This document shows positions 27,886 to 36,889 of a stretch of 40,982 bases of DNA, piece after piece (position 1 is the stretch's first letter; every line of letters starts with the position of its first letter). The stretch covers positions 1-40,982 of the forward strand of contig JAFQZN010000037.1 of the NCBI GenBank assembly GCA_017405865.1, read 5' to 3'. The notes under the pieces were generated by a model, which was given only the letters and a program-made list of their open reading frames with translations, did not search any database and was not told the origin of the DNA. This DNA is from Oscillospiraceae bacterium (lineage in GTDB: Bacteria; Bacillota; Clostridia; Oscillospirales; Oscillospiraceae). The position numbers and the translations under genes are program-made.

Positions 27886-27920
27886 AAAACGGGGCGGCGC
27901 AGAAGCGCCGCTTCCGTTTT
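27886..27920 (-). terminator. Intrinsic terminator of the tRNA gene
   Basis: GC-rich stem (CGGCGC / GCGCCG, extended by AACGG / CCGTT across a small internal loop) followed by TTTTTG on the minus strand, directly after the encoded CCA. Confidence 0.85.
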
Positions 27921-27921
27921 T

Positions 27922-27997
27922 TGGTCCGAGTGACTGGTTTCGAACCAGCGGCCTCGTGGTCCCAAACCACGCGCTCTACCATCTGAGCTACACCCGG
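27922..27997 (-). tRNA. tRNA-Pro (anticodon UGG), CCA encoded
   Basis: A 76-base cloverleaf: acceptor CCGGGTG / CACTCGG with one G-T pair, D-arm TAGCTCAGATGGTAGAGC, anticodon stem CGTGG / CCACG around the loop TTTGGGA (anticodon TGG), T-arm GCTGGTTCGAAACCAGT, discriminator A and CCA. It has its own promoter and terminator. Confidence 0.95.
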
Positions 27998-28007
27998 ATA
28001 TGGGAGT

Positions 28008-28036
28008 ATTATACACGCAAGCGGCAAAAAATGCAA
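28008..28036 (-). promoter_or_regulatory. Promoter of tRNA-Pro
   Basis: Minus-strand TTGCAT (28036-28031), 17 bases, TATAAT (28013-28008), about ten bases before the mature 5' end. Confidence 0.85.
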
Positions 28037-28054
28037 CAAATATTCCGCATGGGG

Positions 28055-28083
28055 TTTACTAACTTCTTTTCATTTGGTATAAT
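28055..28083 (+). promoter_or_regulatory. Promoter of trmB-icd
   Basis: TTTACT (28055-28060), 17 bases, TATAAT (28078-28083). Confidence 0.7.
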
Positions 28084-28119
28084 TTCCACCGAAAGACAAG
28101 GAAACGAGGAGCAGTCCCG

Positions 28120-29964
28120 ATGAGAATGAGAAAGCGAAACAATCTGGAGCCGCGCATGGAGGCTTGCTCGGCAATCTGGCTGCGCGACGCGAAGGCCTTG
28201 CGCGGCAAGTGGCGCACACTCATGCCGGAGGCAAGGGAAATCCGCGTGGAGGTCGGCTGCGGCAAGGGAAAATTTACCGTGGAGACCGCCGCAGCGGAGC
28301 CGGACGTGCTGCTGATCGCCGTGGAGCGTGTGCAGGAGGCGATGCTGCTTGGCATGGAACGCGCGCTGGAAATGGGGCTGAAAAACGTCTATTTCCTCTC
28401 GCTGGACGCGGCCGAAATCGAAGAATACTTCGCAGACGGAGAGATCGACCTGCTCTATCTGAACTTCTGCGACCCGTGGCCGCGCAAAAAGAATGCCAAG
28501 CGCCGCCTCACCTACCGCACCTTTCTGCGCAAGTACCAGCGTATCCTGAGACGGGACGGCGAGATCCACTTCAAGACGGACAACGCCGCGCTTTTTGAAT
28601 GGTCGCTGGGCGAATTCGAGGCGTGCGGTCTGGAGATCCGCAATCTGACGCGCGACCTTCACAGAGACGGGCCGGTCGGCATCATGACCGGCTATGAAGA
28701 GAAATTCTACGAGCTGGGTACGCCGATCAACCGCTGCGAGCTGATCAACCGGGAGGTAAACATGCAGAGAATTCAGATGACGACGCCGCTGGTCGAGATG
28801 GACGGCGACGAAATGACCCGTGTGCTTTGGAAACAGATCAAGGACGAGCTGCTGCTCCCCTTCATTGACCTGAAGACCGAATACTACGATCTGGGCTTGC
28901 CGGAGCGTGACCGCACCGCCGATCAGATCACGGTCGACGCGGCGAATGCGATCAAAAAGTACGGCGTGGGCGTGAAATGCGCCACCATCACGCCGAACGT
29001 GCAGCGCATGAGCGAATACAACCTGCACGAGATGTGGAAAAGTCCGAACGGGACGATCCGCGCCATTTTGGACGGCACGGTGTTTCGCGCGCCGATTCTG
29101 GTCGAGGGCATCCGCCCGGCTGTGAAAAACTGGAAAAAGCCGATCACGATCGCCCGCCACGCCTACGGTGACGTCTATAAGGCGACCGAGCTGCGCGTAC
29201 CGGAGGGCAAGGCGGAGCTGGTCTTCACCGACCGGGAGGGCAACGAGACGCGCAAACCCATCTACGACTTTGAGTGCGGCGGCGTCCTGACCGGGCAGTA
29301 CAACAAGGACTCCTCGATCAGCTCCTTTGCCCGCGCCTGCTTCAACTACGCTCTTGCCACGAAGCAGGATCTGTGGTTTTCCTCCAAGGACACCATCGCG
29401 AAGATCTACGACGGCACGTTCAAAAAGATTTTCGCTGACATTTATGAGGTGGAATACAAAGAGCGCTTTGAGCAGGCCGGCATCACCTATTTCTACACGC
29501 TGATCGACGACGCCGTTGCCCGCGTGATCCGCAGCGAGGGCGGCTTCATCTGGGCATGCAAGAACTACGACGGCGACGTGATGAGCGACATGGTTTCCAC
29601 TGCCTTCGGATCGCTCGCCATGATGACCTCCGTTCTGGTCTCGCCGGACGGAAAATACGAATATGAGGCAGCGCACGGCACGGTCACGAAGCACTACTAC
29701 CGCTATCTGGAGGGAGAGAAGACCTCGACCAATCCCATGGCGACGATCTTCGCCTGGACGGGCGCGCTGAAAAAGCGCGGCGAGCTGGACGGGCTTGACG
29801 ATCTGACTGCCTTCGCCGAGAAGCTCGAAAAGGTCTGTATTTTCGTCATTGAGCGCGGCACGATGACGAAGGATCTGGCGGCGCTGTGGGAGGGAAAGAC
29901 GCCCAACGTCGTCACGAGCGAGGGCTTCATCGCGGCCATCCGCCGTGAATTGGAAAACCGCTGA
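28120..29964 (+). CDS. trmB: TrmB tRNA (guanine-N7) methyltransferase fused in frame to NADP-isocitrate dehydrogenase
   Basis: One open frame of 614 residues. Residues 1-214 are TrmB, which methylates G46 of tRNA with SAM: EVGCGKGKFTVETAA (SAM site), VERVQEAML, LNFCDPWPRKKNAKRRLTY and HFKTDNAALFEWS, then MTGYEEKFYELGTPINRCE near the usual C-terminus. The expected stop is missing: six codons later the frame runs straight into MQRIQMTTPLVEMDGDEMTR, the normal start of isocitrate dehydrogenase (see the entry at 28762). GAGGAG precedes the ATG at 28120. TGA (28742) and TAA (28757) occur in the +1 frame, so a single-base difference, genuine or a sequencing error, would restore a separate TrmB of about 208-213 residues. 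Confidence 0.8.
   Translation: MRMRKRNNLEPRMEACSAIWLRDAKALRGKWRTLMPEAREIRVEVGCGKGKFTVETAAAEPDVLLIAVERVQEAMLLGMERALEMGLKNVYFLSLDAAEIEEYFADGEIDLLYLNFCDPWPRKKNAKRRLTYRTFLRKYQRILRRDGEIHFKTDNAALFEWSLGEFEACGLEIRNLTRDLHRDGPVGIMTGYEEKFYELGTPINRCELINREVNMQRIQMTTPLVEMDGDEMTRVLWKQIKDELLLPFIDLKTEYYDLGLPERDRTADQITVDAANAIKKYGVGVKCATITPNVQRMSEYNLHEMWKSPNGTIRAILDGTVFRAPILVEGIRPAVKNWKKPITIARHAYGDVYKATELRVPEGKAELVFTDREGNETRKPIYDFECGGVLTGQYNKDSSISSFARACFNYALATKQDLWFSSKDTIAKIYDGTFKKIFADIYEVEYKERFEQAGITYFYTLIDDAVARVIRSEGGFIWACKNYDGDVMSDMVSTAFGSLAMMTSVLVSPDGKYEYEAAHGTVTKHYYRYLEGEKTSTNPMATIFAWTGALKKRGELDGLDDLTAFAEKLEKVCIFVIERGTMTKDLAALWEGKTPNVVTSEGFIAAIRRELENR
28751..28757 (+). promoter_or_regulatory. Strong internal ribosome binding site before isocitrate dehydrogenase
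   Basis: GGGAGGT, four bases before the ATG at 28762, inside the open trmB frame. Its presence argues that free isocitrate dehydrogenase is still made. Confidence 0.85.
28762..29964 (+). CDS. icd: NADP-dependent isocitrate dehydrogenase (translated from internal start)
   Basis: A 400-residue enzyme of the eukaryote-like dimeric NADP group, converting isocitrate to 2-oxoglutarate with CO2 release. Family sequences: MTTPLVEMDGDEMTR, LKTEYYDLGLPERD, CATITPNVQRM, SPNGTIRAILDGTVFRAP, TIARHAYGDVYKAT, the tyrosine/lysine/aspartate region TLIDDAVARVIRSEGGFIWA, CKNYDGDVMSDMV, EAAHGTVTKHYYRY and STNPMATIFAW. The start has its own strong ribosome binding site at 28751. Upstream the same frame continues into TrmB without a stop, so a fused and a free form may both exist. 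A terminator follows at 29980. Confidence 0.93.
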   Translation: MQRIQMTTPLVEMDGDEMTRVLWKQIKDELLLPFIDLKTEYYDLGLPERDRTADQITVDAANAIKKYGVGVKCATITPNVQRMSEYNLHEMWKSPNGTIRAILDGTVFRAPILVEGIRPAVKNWKKPITIARHAYGDVYKATELRVPEGKAELVFTDREGNETRKPIYDFECGGVLTGQYNKDSSISSFARACFNYALATKQDLWFSSKDTIAKIYDGTFKKIFADIYEVEYKERFEQAGITYFYTLIDDAVARVIRSEGGFIWACKNYDGDVMSDMVSTAFGSLAMMTSVLVSPDGKYEYEAAHGTVTKHYYRYLEGEKTSTNPMATIFAWTGALKKRGELDGLDDLTAFAEKLEKVCIFVIERGTMTKDLAALWEGKTPNVVTSEGFIAAIRRELENR

Positions 29965-29979
29965 TTTTCCATGTATGAT

Positions 29980-30018
29980 AACACGCTTTGACGGGTATAT
30001 TACCTGTCGAAGCGTGTT
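29980..30018 (+). terminator. Intrinsic terminator after trmB-icd
   Basis: Stem AACACGCTTTGAC / GTCGAAGCGTGTT with further pairing inside (GGGTA / TACC-type), followed by TTTTCTTCT. Confidence 0.85.
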
Positions 30019-30078
30019 TTCTTCTCGAAAAAAAACGCAAAAAAAGTGAAAAATTCCGTTTTTTTCACGAAAAAACTA

Positions 30079-30107
30079 TTGCGCTGTGAATAAAACTGCG
30101 GTATACT
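30079..30107 (+). promoter_or_regulatory. Promoter of rpoD
   Basis: TTGCGC (30079-30084), 17 bases, TATACT (30102-30107). Confidence 0.75.
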
Positions 30108-30146
30108 GTGCTGGATACACTTGAATAAGGTATAAGGAAGTGCTTT

Positions 30147-31289
<1,143 letters not shown>

Positions 31290-31381: not shown

Positions 31382-34300
31382 TTATTCCGCGACAGCGCGG
31401 TAGAGGAAGGTCACGATCTGGCCGCGCGTGCAGGTGTTGTCCGGGCTGAACGTCGTCGCCGAGGTGCCGGCGGTGATGTTCTTTTCCACTGCCCACAGCA
31501 CTGCGTCGTAATAGTAGCCGCCGGTCACGTCCTTGAAGGGATTTGCGGAGGAGGTCGGCTTCGGCTGCCCCTCGGTTCTCCACAGGAAGGTCACGACCTG
31601 CGCTCTCGTGCAGCCTGCGTTCGGGCTGAACGTCGTCGCGCTCGTGCCGGTCGTAATGTCGTTCTCGACCGCCCACAGGACGGCCTTGTAATAGTAGTCG
31701 GTTGCCTTGACGTCCTTGAAGGGGTTATTGTTTGCTTTCGGCTCCGGACAGCCCTTTGCTCTCCAGAGGAAGGTCACGACCTGCGCTCTTGTGCAGGTGG
31801 CGTCCGGGCTGAAGGTCGTCACGCTCGTACCGGAGGTGACCTGCGGCACTGCGTTGACCGCCCACAGCACGGCGTCGTAGTAGAACTCGCCTTGCTTGAC
31901 GTCCTTGAACGGGTTGTCCTGCACAGGAGGCTTATAGTTCGGGTCCTTCGCGCCACAGACGGTGCACACGCCGTCCTTGTAGCTGTGCGGGATCATCGGA
32001 ACAACTGTTTGCTCTTCCTTATAGTCGCAGCGCGTGCAGTGCTTGCCCTCCGTCAGACCGGTCGCGGTGCAGGTCGCAGGCTTCGCAGGATCGGTCACGA
32101 GGTCATGCCCCAGCGCGTCGACCGTCTTCTTTTCACGGCTCAATTCCGCGCCGCAGACGGAGCAGTAAACGACTTCGTCATAGGAGCCTGCCTCGGTGCA
32201 GGTCGGGGCGACTTCGTTCTCCTTGACCGCGTCGGCAGGACTGTGTCCGGACGCCGGAATCTCTGCGTAGGTCGTGTAGTCGCAGCGCGTGCAGGTATCG
32301 TATGCCGCCCAGCCCTTTTCGGTACAGCTCACCGCCTGCGCCTCGTGATGCACGAGGTCATGCCCCAGCGCGTCGACCGTCTTCTTCTCGCGGCTTAATT
32401 CCGCGCTGCAGACGGAGCAGTAAACGACTTCGTCATAGGAGCCTGCCTCGGTGCAGGTCGGGGCGACTTCGTTCTCCTTGACCGCAGCGGCGGGCGCGTG
32501 CCCGCGCGGGTCGACCGCAACGGTCTTTGTCTGTTCCTTGAATACGGGGTTTTCAAAGCTCGCCGTATAGAACAGTTCACCTGCCGTAGTGCAGGTTGCT
32601 TCCACCGTTCTGACGACCGTGTTCACCGTCTCGGACTCAATGTGATTCTCTTCATTCAGGCAAGCACGGGAAGCGGTGACTGTCGCGTTGTCCACGCTCC
32701 AGACGTAAGTTGGCTCGCCCCAATCATGCCCATAATAGCAGTTATAGTCCACGAGGATCTTGACTGCGGGACGATCCGCCAGATTGTCGGAAACGGTAAG
32801 CTCGCCGGAAGCCATCTTGCCGAGCAGGGCGCGGTAGTCCGCCTCGGTGAAGGTTTCGTTGAACTGCGTCGTCGGCGCAAGAGCGACGAAGTTCCCGGCA
32901 GGATCGTCGGACACGACGCCGAGGGTATCCGTGCCGCCGGCGAAGGCGCCGTTCGCGATTTTATTCAGCTGATCGGTGACCGTTGCACCGAGCCCCTTCA
33001 TGGCGGAGGTGATCGTAATGCCTGCGCCGAATTCCTCGTCCACCATGGGTCCCTGGTCAATGTCGACGCCGATGAACTTGCCGCCCGCCCTTGCAGCAGC
33101 GGAGGCTGCGCTGGCATAGATGCCGCCGCCGCAGGCGAAGACGACTTCTGTGCCGTTCGCGAACCAGTTATCAACGTACGCCTCTACGGCATCATCGGGG
33201 AAGAACTGATCGCAGTATACATAGTCCAGACGGATCTCGTCCGCGCAGCCGAGCGCGATTGCCGCGTCGTTCGCGCCCTGCACGAAGCCGTAGCCGTACT
33301 TCATCACGCTGGGGATCTCCATGCCGCCGAGGAAGGCGAGCTTGCGGTAGCCCATGGCGACCGCGGCGTAGCCTGCCAGATAGCCCGACTGCTCGTCGGC
33401 GTAGGTCGCAGCGTAGAGATTATCGGGAATGACGTAGTTTTCGTCGCCGGTCGCCATTTCCAGATCGCTCAAGCCGGCGTCGAGCAGAATGATCTTGACC
33501 TCCGGGCAGGTCTCGGCAAGCGTCGCGGCGGGACCTGCGAACATAAAGCCGGGCAGCACCAACGTATCAAAGCCGTCGCTGACCGCCTGCGCCGCCGAGG
33601 TCAAATAGGCGTCTTCGTCGTCGCCGTAGACCGTATAGGCTGCGCAGGGCTTTTCGTTTTCGGCGCACCACGCGTCGGCAGCCTCCCATGCAGCTTGATT
33701 GAAGCCGCCGTCTTCCACGCCGCCGAAGTCGGTCACGACCGCTACCGAACCTGCGGGCGGCAGCTCGCCATCGTCGAAGATGAGCTGATACCAATCGCTC
33801 GGACGGTCGCCGTCCATCCGGTCAAGCTGCAATGTATAGGAGGTTCCTTCGATCGCAGTGCGACCCCAAGTGCCGTAAAGCCCCGTGCCCGGAATGCCGA
33901 CGCGGCAGATGGGAACGCTCTCGTCCCACGTGAAGGTCAGGCTTTCCGTCTCAAAAGGTACGCGGACGCGCATCCGGTTTTCCCAAACGACGTAGTTTTC
34001 CGCGTCCACTCCTGCGGGCGCATCGATCCCGCCGGGGGCATACCATTCGACCTCGACCATCACCGGACGTTCCTCGGTGCGCTGGAAGCTCTCAAGCACC
34101 ATCTGCCCTTCGTCGAAGCAGAACACGATCTCGATATTATAATCGTTCGCAGGAGTGAAGGTGAGGATGCCGTCCTCGTACGTCCAGCCCTCTTTGAGGA
34201 CCGTACCGTTCTGGAAGACCGGTTCTTCGACCCAGTCGAAATGCTCATCGACGTAACGGGCGATGACGGCGACGAAGTCGGTCGGTTCCTTTTCCACGAG

Positions 34301-36889
34301 CTCGAGCACACCTTCATGCTCCCATTTGTCAAAGTCCGCACAGACAGACGTGTCGATCAGGATATGGATCGGCTGCGGCTCGCCGTCGGGCGCGAAGTTG
34401 AGAGGATATTCCCAACTGTCGGGCTGGTAATGATCCGCGTCCGCCGCCGGGACTTCATCGCCAAGCGCAACAAAGACGCTGCCCTGCCCCCAGTCGTACC
34501 ACGCCGCCATCTGACCTTCCCTGCCGAGCCAGTCGTAGTTCACAAAGTAGAATTCCAGATTGTATCTGGTTTCCGGGTTGCCCCACTCGTCACGCTGATT
34601 CAGCTCAATGGTGTAGGTGTTCCCCTCGGCAGCGACCGTGCTCCAGCCGTCCTCACCGGCGTCCTCCAGACCCATCACGCGCAGTTCGCGCAGCTCGCCC
34701 TCCCAGGAGAAGGTCAGGCGCTCGGTCTCGAACGGAACGCGGATACGCATCCGGTCGTCCTGCACGAGCATATCCTCCGCGGGAACGTCGTCCATCAGCT
34801 GCACGGGGCCGCCGTCACGCCAGTAGACCTCGACAACCACCGGGGCTTCTTCGGTGCCATTGAAGCTGAAGAAGTCGCGATCAGACTGCCGCCACCAGAA
34901 GTTCAATTGGATGTCATAATCGTTTGCGGGGATCATGCTCAAGACGCCGTCTTCATACGTCCAGCCGTTCTTTAAGACCTCACCGTTCTCGAAGACCGTG
35001 CCCTCAAACAGCTGCCACTCTGCGTCGATATATCGCGCCTCGACGGCGACAAGATCGCTGTCCTCACGGTCGTGAAGCTGGAAGGTTCCGTTATCCCATT
35101 CCTCCCAGTCGATACCCTTGTTCGGGTCGATGAGCAAGTGGATCGCCTGTCCGGGCGTGAAGGCGTAGCCATCGTTGTTCCCGGCGGCGTAGCATTCCTC
35201 GTTCTCATCGGGCGCGTTTTCGCCCTGCGCAAGGAATACGCTGCCGCTCCACTGGTCATAGCCGAGGAAGAGCTTGCTGTCCTGCCCGATCCAGTTATAG
35301 TCCGGGAATTGGAACTGGATGTTGTAGCGGTCTCTGGGATCGCCCCATTCGTTGGTCTGGTTGAGCATCAGCGTATAGCTGTCACCCTCCGGCGGGAAGT
35401 AAGCCCACGCATTCCCTTCGCCGAGCCCTTCCACGCCGATCTCTTCCAGCGGACCGTCCCATGTAAAGGTCAGGCTCTCAGTCGTCCACGGCACACGGAT
35501 GCGCATTCTGCCGTCCTGTGCGAGGAAGTCCTCCTCGGCAACGCCGGCAGGCGCTGGCACTTCGCCGGAGCCCCACCAGTTGACGTCGATCACGACAGGC
35601 GCCTCTTCGGTGCCGTTGAACAGATCGAACAGATAGTCTCTCTCCCGCCAGCAGACATGCAGTTCGCAATTGCTGTTATCCACCGGCGTGAAGGACAGGA
35701 TGTTATCCTCAAAGGTAAAGCCGTCTATGACGACCACGCCGTTCTCAACGATCGTTCCGTCATACCAGTTGCCGTCGGGCAGGTAGCCCGCATACCGGAT
35801 ATAGATCCCTTCGCATTCGTCACGCGGCTCGAAGATCAGCTCTTCGCGTTCGTTCCATGCGTCCCAGTCGATGCCCTGCGTGGTATCGAACAGCAGATGC
35901 ACGGTCTGAACCTCGCCGCTGGAGATGAAATTAAAGGCATTGTCCCAGGAATCGAACAGATAGTTCGCCGGATCGGCGGTCGGCGCATTCTCACCGAGCG
36001 AGGCAAAGATGCTGGCGCTCCACTGGTCATACCAGACGGCAAGATTGCCGTCCGCGCCGAAATCGTTGTCCGCGAACTCAAAATTGACGTGATACCAGTC
36101 GCGCTCAGACGTGATCGGCAGCGTCCATTCGGTGCCCTCCGGCCACGCAAGCTCGCCCCAGCCGCCGTCCGCGCCGATGCCGTCTGCGCTGATGCGCTCC
36201 ATGCGGAAGCTCTCTTTCCACGCAAAGGTCAGACTTTCGGTGCTCGCGGGCACGCGGATCTTAATGCCGTAGCCGAACGGCTCATAGGTATAGTTCTCCG
36301 GATCGATCCCGTCCGGAAGCTGCAGCTGCCGGTAGCCTCTGCCGCCGCCGTTGACGTCGATCATCACGGGGTTTTCTTCGTTCGGTCCGAAGGTGTGGAA
36401 GATATACTCCCCGTAGGTCCAGGTGACGCGCAGCTCCAGATAGTCGGCAATTCCGACGTTCCAGGTCAGCACATTACCGGAGAAGCTGACGTCATCGCTC
36501 CGAACTTCTCCCCTGTCAACGACCCATTCGTCGACCTCGTCGCCGTTTGTCTTCCGATAGCGCGCCCAGACGGAGATCACGCGACCGCCCACCTCGTCGG
36601 CGGGCATAAAGCCGTCCTTCTCGCCGTCCCAGCCGTATTGGACGGTGGGATCGATCCGGAAGGTCACCGTACCGGTTCCGCTTACGACGCAGTCGTTATA
36701 CGCCCGCAGCAGGGTTTCCTCGCTCACGGCCGGGGGCGTGCCGTCGGTGGAATAGAAGACCGTGCCGAACTGCTCCCGATAATCCGCGTGGATCCGCAGC
36801 TCGGCGGTTTCCCCTGCGCTTGCAGCCGCCGGCAGCAGCGTCAGCAGCATGGTCAGCGCAAGGAAGAGAGACAAAATGCGGTTTTTCAT
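31382..36889 (-). CDS. Giant surface protein: repeats, PnrA/BMP-like ligand-binding domain, GH repeats and three SLH domains
   Basis: 1835 residues, complete. A signal peptide (1-26) is followed by about four diverged 220-residue modules with the pattern GTEEAPVVxDVxW, RMRIRVPxxTESLTFTW and GxxAPxxxxxY. About 1044-1375 are a basic-membrane-protein/PnrA-like fold (SVAVVTDFGGVEDGGFNQAA, FDTLVLPGFMFAGPA, EVVFACGGGIYASA, GKFIGVDIDQGPMV), a family whose studied lipoprotein members bind purine nucleosides. About 1400-1650 are cysteine repeats of the CxxC...ALGHD type also present in the giant PHP protein. From 1657 come three SLH domains (NPFKDV...YYDAVLWAV...GTSATTFSP...CTRAQVVTFLWR) that bind cell-wall polymers. 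GGGAGG precedes the ATG. A surface-held nucleoside-like binding receptor is a reasonable but untested reading. Confidence 0.92.
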   Translation of the reverse strand: MKNRILSLFLALTMLLTLLPAAASAGETAELRIHADYREQFGTVFYSTDGTPPAVSEETLLRAYNDCVVSGTGTVTFRIDPTVQYGWDGEKDGFMPADEVGGRVISVWARYRKTNGDEVDEWVVDRGEVRSDDVSFSGNVLTWNVGIADYLELRVTWTYGEYIFHTFGPNEENPVMIDVNGGGRGYRQLQLPDGIDPENYTYEPFGYGIKIRVPASTESLTFAWKESFRMERISADGIGADGGWGELAWPEGTEWTLPITSERDWYHVNFEFADNDFGADGNLAVWYDQWSASIFASLGENAPTADPANYLFDSWDNAFNFISSGEVQTVHLLFDTTQGIDWDAWNEREELIFEPRDECEGIYIRYAGYLPDGNWYDGTIVENGVVVIDGFTFEDNILSFTPVDNSNCELHVCWRERDYLFDLFNGTEEAPVVIDVNWWGSGEVPAPAGVAEEDFLAQDGRMRIRVPWTTESLTFTWDGPLEEIGVEGLGEGNAWAYFPPEGDSYTLMLNQTNEWGDPRDRYNIQFQFPDYNWIGQDSKLFLGYDQWSGSVFLAQGENAPDENEECYAAGNNDGYAFTPGQAIHLLIDPNKGIDWEEWDNGTFQLHDREDSDLVAVEARYIDAEWQLFEGTVFENGEVLKNGWTYEDGVLSMIPANDYDIQLNFWWRQSDRDFFSFNGTEEAPVVVEVYWRDGGPVQLMDDVPAEDMLVQDDRMRIRVPFETERLTFSWEGELRELRVMGLEDAGEDGWSTVAAEGNTYTIELNQRDEWGNPETRYNLEFYFVNYDWLGREGQMAAWYDWGQGSVFVALGDEVPAADADHYQPDSWEYPLNFAPDGEPQPIHILIDTSVCADFDKWEHEGVLELVEKEPTDFVAVIARYVDEHFDWVEEPVFQNGTVLKEGWTYEDGILTFTPANDYNIEIVFCFDEGQMVLESFQRTEERPVMVEVEWYAPGGIDAPAGVDAENYVVWENRMRVRVPFETESLTFTWDESVPICRVGIPGTGLYGTWGRTAIEGTSYTLQLDRMDGDRPSDWYQLIFDDGELPPAGSVAVVTDFGGVEDGGFNQAAWEAADAWCAENEKPCAAYTVYGDDEDAYLTSAAQAVSDGFDTLVLPGFMFAGPAATLAETCPEVKIILLDAGLSDLEMATGDENYVIPDNLYAATYADEQSGYLAGYAAVAMGYRKLAFLGGMEIPSVMKYGYGFVQGANDAAIALGCADEIRLDYVYCDQFFPDDAVEAYVDNWFANGTEVVFACGGGIYASAASAAARAGGKFIGVDIDQGPMVDEEFGAGITITSAMKGLGATVTDQLNKIANGAFAGGTDTLGVVSDDPAGNFVALAPTTQFNETFTEADYRALLGKMASGELTVSDNLADRPAVKILVDYNCYYGHDWGEPTYVWSVDNATVTASRACLNEENHIESETVNTVVRTVEATCTTAGELFYTASFENPVFKEQTKTVAVDPRGHAPAAAVKENEVAPTCTEAGSYDEVVYCSVCSAELSREKKTVDALGHDLVHHEAQAVSCTEKGWAAYDTCTRCDYTTYAEIPASGHSPADAVKENEVAPTCTEAGSYDEVVYCSVCGAELSREKKTVDALGHDLVTDPAKPATCTATGLTEGKHCTRCDYKEEQTVVPMIPHSYKDGVCTVCGAKDPNYKPPVQDNPFKDVKQGEFYYDAVLWAVNAVPQVTSGTSVTTFSPDATCTRAQVVTFLWRAKGCPEPKANNNPFKDVKATDYYYKAVLWAVENDITTGTSATTFSPNAGCTRAQVVTFLWRTEGQPKPTSSANPFKDVTGGYYYDAVLWAVEKNITAGTSATTFSPDNTCTRGQIVTFLYRAVAE
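32096..32230 (-). repeat. 135-bp intragenic direct repeat, unit 1
   Basis: Near-identical to 32351-32485 (about four differences in 135 bases, offset 255). It encodes a CxxC / DALGHDLV repeat of the giant SLH protein. Recombination between the units would delete 85 codons in frame. Confidence 0.85.
32351..32485 (-). repeat. 135-bp intragenic direct repeat, unit 2
   Basis: Partner of 32096-32230; same orientation and frame. Confidence 0.85.

Follow-up and report, generated by a model that had tools for sequence, protein, structure and literature searches.

A stop-free trmB-icd junction joins a tRNA methyltransferase to NADP-isocitrate dehydrogenase in three related bacterial genera

A single open reading frame in an Oscillospiraceae genome encodes a complete tRNA methyltransferase, TrmB, followed in frame by a complete NADP-isocitrate dehydrogenase (IDH, gene icd), and stop-free junctions of the same two genes recur in three related genera. 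There is a good probability that this arrangement arose by stop-loss fusion of the neighbours trmB and icd, and that it would yield both a fusion protein and free IDH.

Results

One open reading frame encodes two complete enzymes

The window analysed here (40,982 nucleotides) is a whole contig of a 2.08-Mb genome in 83 contigs that is 92% complete. Its ORF at 28120-29964 runs from ATG to TGA with zero internal stops and specifies 614 aa. A first-pass annotation, made from the letters alone, had proposed that the TrmB frame is fused in frame to NADP-IDH in a protein of this length, and the ORF, Pfam and NCBIfam all agree with that proposal. Pfam assigned residues 40-205 to Methyltransf_4 (PF02390) and residues 222-590 to Iso_dh (PF00180). 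By NCBIfam, residues 1-204 matched TrmB (NF001080; 175.6 bits, cut-off 132) and residues 215-613 matched NADP-IDH PRK08299 (NF006156; 650.6 bits, cut-off 335) over positions 1-400 of the 403 in the profile, while the TrmB model TIGR00091 scored 138.9 bits on the fusion ORF (cut-off 112.65). The nearest solved chains on the TrmB side were 1yzh, 7nyb and 2fca, with the alignment reaching residue 207-208; on the IDH side the nearest was 4aou, from Clostridium thermocellum, aligned with 634 bits to IDH residues 1-398 of 400 aa. As the matches on both sides run to the junction, a complete C-terminus is joined to a complete N-terminus.

The linker between the two domains proved stop-free, as had been claimed, but its length is seven codons (LINREVN, after Glu207) and not the six originally counted. 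TGA and TAA, described as lying one frame over, are both present in the +1 frame of the linker, and the internal Shine-Dalgarno sequence announced before the second ATG was located at the positions given in Table 1.

Table 1. Features of the trmB-icd locus and its surroundings (window coordinates).
Feature	Position	Strand	Evidence
Promoter-like site upstream of trmB (TTTACT, 17 nt, TATAAT; TG before the second hexamer)	28055..28083	+	Consensus scan, 10/12 matches
GAGGAG, likely trmB ribosome-binding site	28106..28111	+	Read from sequence; predicted anti-SD pairing -9.4 kcal/mol
TrmB domain (tRNA guanosine-46 N7-methyltransferase), codons 1-207	28120..28740	+	PF02390, NF001080, TIGR00091
7-codon linker LINREVN, translated trmB end plus icd leader, stop-free in frame	28741..28761	+	
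Internal Shine-Dalgarno CGGGAGGT for putative free IDH, within the fusion frame	28750..28757	+	Predicted pairing -11.2 kcal/mol
NADP-isocitrate dehydrogenase domain with own ATG (28762-28764), codons 215-614 and stop TGA	28762..29964	+	PF00180, NF006156
Intrinsic-terminator-like hairpin 3' of icd, 18 pairs then T-rich tail	29980..30018	+	3 such sites in the region vs 2.5 expected (shuffles)
Sigma-70 factor gene (rpoD-like), next gene after icd (context)	30147..31289	+	Pfam sigma-70 regions 1.1, 1.2, 2, 3, 4

The promoter consensus scan of positions 27900-30200 returned 4 sites against 0.7 expected, each of them a consensus match and not evidence of function. With a promoter-like site before trmB and a terminator-like hairpin after icd, the fusion looks, as far as consensus matches can tell, like a single transcription unit. 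The order trmB, icd, sigma-70 is shared by the window and several relatives, in which the sigma-70 gene was recognised by its N-terminal sequence.

Two neighbours of the locus may be recorded here. A tRNA-Pro (tgg) gene lies on the opposite strand at 27922-27997 (-), directly upstream of the trmB promoter-like site. Beyond the sigma-70 gene, positions 31382-36889 (-) encode an 1835-aa protein with a PnrA-like substrate-binding domain (PF02608) at residues 1049-1322; long repeated-looking segments precede this domain and S-layer homology domains follow it, which sets a transporter-type binding domain within what is probably a cell-surface protein.

Distribution of the fusion among relatives

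Comparison of the junction in related genomes, a check put forward in the first-pass annotation, revealed a stop-free trmB-icd join in 13 of the 26 genomes searched, distributed over three related genera of one family. The fused genomes made up 7 of 17 in the window's genus (G000, G001, G003, G004, G009, G011 and G013, the last with a partial copy cut at a contig end), 5 of 7 in the genus g76 (G091, G234, G316, G334 and G175) and 1 of 2 in g82 (G177), those of g76 and g82 being 69-75% identical to the window. A sequencing or assembly error as the cause of the fusion was rejected, the same junction being present in relatives. The suspicion that one base is wrong or was recently gained also fell for this genome, as seven genomes listed as different species share the junction at pairwise dS values of 0.18-1.70 (21 pairs of fused genus members). 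Within the window's genome the gene pair gave one match only, and no second copy of either gene was found at 92% completeness; likewise the fused match was the only one in G001 and in G011, whose listed completeness is 100% each.

The remaining members of the window's genus displayed other arrangements. In three genomes trmB and icd are adjacent and overlap off frame (G012, G002 and G014, the overlap in G014 being of the ATGA type). Single genes were found in G008 (icd only) and in G010 and G005, in which trmB closes with its own stop and the search gave no match to icd; in G015 part of trmB is present at a contig end, and G016, G007 and G006 gave no match. Since completeness in this genus ranges from 55 to 100%, such absences are weak except in complete genomes. 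In other relatives the two genes are parted, by a DUF554 gene in G279 and G335 (the DUF554 match was made for G335, and G279 is similar by eye) and by a sodium:alanine symporter gene in G032. A three-part fusion in G279, reported as a 1051-aa open frame, was discarded: its trmB frame ends right behind codon 217, with further stops ahead of icd.

In a family sample of 300 genomes, 9 full-length matches were among those listed, all within the three genera; weak matches were listed in part. No further fusion appeared among the matches listed for 396 family, 394 order, 391 class and 398 phylum genomes, which are overlapping samples searched under strict limits (1e-215 for this second family sample, 1e-210 for the order, 1e-190 for the class and 1e-150 for the phylum) under which a very remote fusion, or one built on a different type of IDH, would escape notice. 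A search of E. coli genomes with the junction DNA gave no match. As a separate observation, IDH genes 70-74% identical to that of the window occur on contigs titled Synergistaceae, Flexilinea, Bacteroidales and Prevotella; these may reflect either gene transfer or wrongly binned contigs.

Linkers and the chance of a stop-free frame

The linker measures 21 nt in all seven fused members of the window's genus. The leader before the IDH start reads AACCGGGAGGTAAAC-ATG in the window, CGCAAGGAGGCACCC-ATG in G177, AACAAGGAGGAGCTTCCC-ATG in G334 and AAAAGGAGTGAAGAACGC-ATG in G091; the linkers of the three genera thus differ in length and sequence, and each reads as the local icd leader in translated form. 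In G334, G177 and the window's genus, the AAGGAGG/GGGAGGT motif itself is read as linker codons. The junction of the off-frame G012 and that of the fused G011 differ at a single base within a stretch of A.

When the window linker was shuffled at the same composition, no in-frame stop arose at a frequency of 0.71, and shuffles of the 13 fused linkers were stop-free in frame at 0.42-0.78. Agreement of frame between trmB and icd was estimated by hand at about 1 in 3. A stop-free linker being easy to obtain and the frame matching about one time in three, a single fusion of close neighbours is unremarkable. As each fusion is mutationally easy, the notable part is its recurrence and persistence in 13 genomes of three genera.

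Selection on the two halves and integrity of their motifs

Both halves of the protein are under strong purifying selection in the window's genus: over the 21 pairs from the seven fused members (G013 partial), dN/dS ranged from 0.027 to 0.089 for TrmB and from 0.034 to 0.082 for IDH.

The window protein keeps the TrmB motifs EVGCGKG, DPWP, KTDN and MTxYE. In a further alignment, a TrmB-only row showed 25% identity and was taken out as misaligned. According to PMC10130221, changing R26, D144, H151, R154, R155, D180, T217 or E220 of E. coli TrmB to alanine lowered activity to less than 10%. By motif alignment, the window counterparts of D144, R154, R155, D180, T217 and E220 are D118, R128, R129, D154, T190 and E193. 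The E. coli His151 position is occupied by Asn125 in the window, and by Asn in its genus, and the Arg154 position is Leu in g76, in fused and separate copies alike. With the first change in the window's genus and the second in g76, full TrmB activity is not assured. We rejected the idea that fusion had caused the loss of TrmB catalytic residues, because the same substitutions are found in separate-gene relatives.

On the IDH side, the window carries SPNGTIR...TVFR, RHAYGD, KDTI, LIDDAVA...KNYDGDVMSD and EAAHGTVT, the isocitrate and NADP motifs; the NGT motif was read in 5 genomes. The window has HGTVTK instead of HGTVTR, as do the separate-gene G012, G014 and G028. Its genome also encodes citrate synthase and aconitase. 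In G010 (99% complete), G005 (72%) and G016, no match was obtained for icd, citrate synthase or aconitase, which suggests that these genomes have lost the citrate-to-2-oxoglutarate branch; the joint absence of the three genes would fit a role of IDH in that branch. The pattern is imperfect: G003 has icd without a citrate synthase match, G013 (55% complete) has icd without an aconitase match, and G007 has a citrate synthase match without icd or aconitase.

The internal start and its loss in one genome

The icd ribosome-binding site and start codon are kept in 12 of the 13 fused genomes, G175 being the exception. In these 12 the internal anti-SD energy was -11.0 to -11.3 kcal/mol, as compared with -10.6 to -12.6 for icd in five separate-gene relatives, and in each of them the internal site was predicted to be stronger than trmB's own. 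The sequence CGGGAGGT is identical at 8 of 8 bases in the six complete fused ORFs of the window's genus and is present in the partial G013. Such invariance is mildly unusual, being equalled by 56 of 612 in-phase windows, and the rare arginine codon CGG, 9% of the Arg codons in the six fused ORFs, is kept in 6/6. Equally strong pairing was predicted for 2 of the 14 other internal ATGs in the window ORF and for one each in G001, G003, G004 and G011; the remaining 7 of these 12 genomes had no such ATG. As some other internal ATGs pair as strongly, the motif alone is no proof of initiation. The production of both a fusion and a free IDH from one locus is nevertheless plausible from these predictions.

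The G175 fusion has TCC where the IDH start codon would be, with a site energy of -3.2 there and of -1.0 at the next ATG. This genome, 90% complete, has an open 619-aa fusion that contains the KTD, MTxYE, SPNGTIR, KDTI, LIDD...KNYDGDVMSD and EAAHGTVT motifs, and the only other match to the query was weak (E 4e-6). IDH therein seems to exist as a fusion alone, a reading drawn from this one genome. G175 further differs in having long branches for both halves and no adjoining sigma-70 gene in 8.5 kb.

Evolutionary history of the junction

A joint tree was built from the TrmB and IDH columns, without the linker, for the 23 of 31 genomes having both genes (8 omitted). The fused members of the window's genus formed one branch (support 96/99.5). 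Grouping the five fused g76 genomes as one clade was not rejected (p 0.147), whereas grouping all 13 fused genomes was (p 1.94e-75). State changes numbered 4 in the best joint tree, and the well-supported branches require at least 3; the rows of G175 and G030 are long and their placement is unsure. Separate quick trees gave 6 changes for TrmB (37 rows) and 4 for IDH (39 rows). The separate-gene G012 fell inside the fused group in the TrmB tree (SH-aLRT 92) and outside it in the IDH and joint trees, a conflict that could stem from recombination at the junction or from a secondary split.

The fused genomes are therefore, by these trees, not one clade, which means several fusions or several splits of one; the change counts do not distinguish gain from loss. 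Several gains are favoured because the linkers differ between genera and each corresponds to a translated icd leader. The relatives likely display the stages of such a process: off-frame overlap (G012 and G002), an ATGA overlap (G014) and separation (G279, G335 and G032).

Discussion

We consider it probable that the window records a stop-loss fusion of two neighbouring genes. trmB and icd would at first have been close or overlapping neighbours, and loss of the trmB stop, or a small length change that aligned the frames, would have allowed the TrmB frame to continue across the icd leader and on into IDH. Ribosomes starting at trmB would make a TrmB-IDH protein of about 70 kDa, because no stop intervenes, and those entering at the internal Shine-Dalgarno and ATG would make free IDH of about 45 kDa. 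Free IDH is probably the dominant product, with an IDH dosage that would be independent of trmB. Each half most likely keeps its ordinary role, formation of m7G46 in tRNA for one and conversion of isocitrate to 2-oxoglutarate with NADPH for the other, and the fusion may have been tolerated because a free C-terminus was joined to a free N-terminus. G175 has lost the internal start, and its IDH seems to occur in fused form only.

Other readings overlap with this one and with each other, and their probabilities do not sum to one. The closest to it, possible but doubtful, holds that the fusion is a minor by-product, that almost all IDH is translated from the internal start, and that the locus is a neutral snapshot between separation and fusion; it amounts to the low-fusion end of the stop-loss scenario. 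An internal site as strong as those of separate icd genes and predicted to exceed that of trmB in each of 12 genomes fits it, as does the off-frame overlap in close relatives. In the absence of a stop, however, any ribosome that completes trmB goes on to make the fusion, and no free TrmB is then to be expected; for its own species, moreover, G175 contradicts such a reading. At the opposite end, the protein could be a bifunctional enzyme selected for bringing tRNA m7G methylation and 2-oxoglutarate/NADPH production together in place or in regulation. This would explain its presence in three genera and its obligatory state in G175. We judge this quite unlikely. It draws on the rejection of a single fused clade (p 2e-75), on a frame maintained at dS near 1, and on G175, where an open 619-aa fusion without internal start retains the checked TrmB and IDH motifs and the sole other match has an E value of 4e-6. 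Yet off-frame adjacent copies persist in G012, G002 and G014, the genes are parted by a DUF554-type gene (G279, G335) or a symporter (G032), and G010 and G005 retain trmB with no icd match; moreover, a stop-free linker comes easily by chance (0.42-0.78), and an internal start kept in 12 of 13 genomes would be needless if the fusion alone mattered. These off-frame neighbours, inserted genes and apparent icd losses in close relatives indicate that the TrmB-IDH tie is dispensable. To our knowledge no pathway connects the two reactions. The link raised in the first-pass annotation, of a tRNA-modification enzyme with the TCA cycle, found no support in the comparison, close relatives having the genes separate or no IDH match, and functional coupling of TrmB and IDH appears improbable from the genomic comparison. 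The boldest version, a repeatedly evolved and selected TrmB-IDH enzyme for which free IDH would be a tunable second product, and which in the G175 lineage would place all IDH in a tRNA-modifying protein, has in our view a slim chance of being right.

It is also conceivable, though unlikely, that one ancient fusion was re-split on several occasions, through the insertion of genes in G279/G335 and G032 and through small length changes in G012, G002 and G014. Change counts on the tree cannot separate gain from loss, and G012, which falls within the fused group in the TrmB tree, has a junction one base off that of G011; these points are compatible with re-splitting. It would require that two different genes were each inserted exactly at the junction, and it sits poorly with linkers that differ among the three genera, each resembling the local icd leader. 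Finally, a one-base sequencing or assembly error might have removed the trmB stop. The one base in an A run, an error-prone type of site, that separates G012, the non-fused relative most like the window, from the fused G011 lends this some colour for the off-frame state of G012, the only place where it may apply. For the window it is refuted, given seven genomes listed as different species with the same in-frame junction and varied synonymous positions and six more fused genomes with other linkers in two other genera, and overall we give it practically no credence.

The stop-loss fusion thus comes with a natural series in close relatives: separate genes, off-frame overlap, fusion with an internal start and fusion without it. 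With this series, the route from neighbouring genes to a fused protein can be tested directly, and with it the question of whether a retained internal start protects the second enzyme until the fusion is established. There is also a warning for annotation: in these genomes, a gene product labelled TrmB or IDH may in fact be a 70-kDa chain of two enzymes.

A literature search for a TrmB-isocitrate dehydrogenase fusion, or for TrmB fused to a dehydrogenase, found no paper; as far as searched, the gene pair is new in print, while the kind of event, fusion with a retained internal start, is known. Relative to the TrmB families (TIGR00091, NF001080), the window protein matches over the full length, from residue 1 to about 208, but lacks a stop after the domain and has Asn at the E. 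coli His151 position. Relative to NADP-IDH of the PRK08299 or eukaryote type (NF006156, TIGR00127), it matches at full length with motifs kept and adds an in-frame N-terminal extension of 214 residues, TrmB plus linker. Two known families, the bifunctional PrmC-TrmB (NF002421, PRK01544) and the long TrmB (NF010719, PRK14121), resemble it in placing TrmB within a longer protein. Comparing names and lengths, however, PrmC-TrmB joins another methyltransferase and neither family name includes a dehydrogenase, and the window scores far below both cut-offs (36.8 vs 567 bits for PrmC-TrmB and 66.8 vs 402 bits for long TrmB). As described in PMC11005335, bacterial N-terminal proteoform pairs arise from in-frame internal start sites. 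The window is like the pairs presented there in having one ORF with an internal in-frame start from which a second, shorter protein is predicted, and unlike them in that its shorter product would be a complete neighbouring enzyme and not a trimmed form of the longer one.
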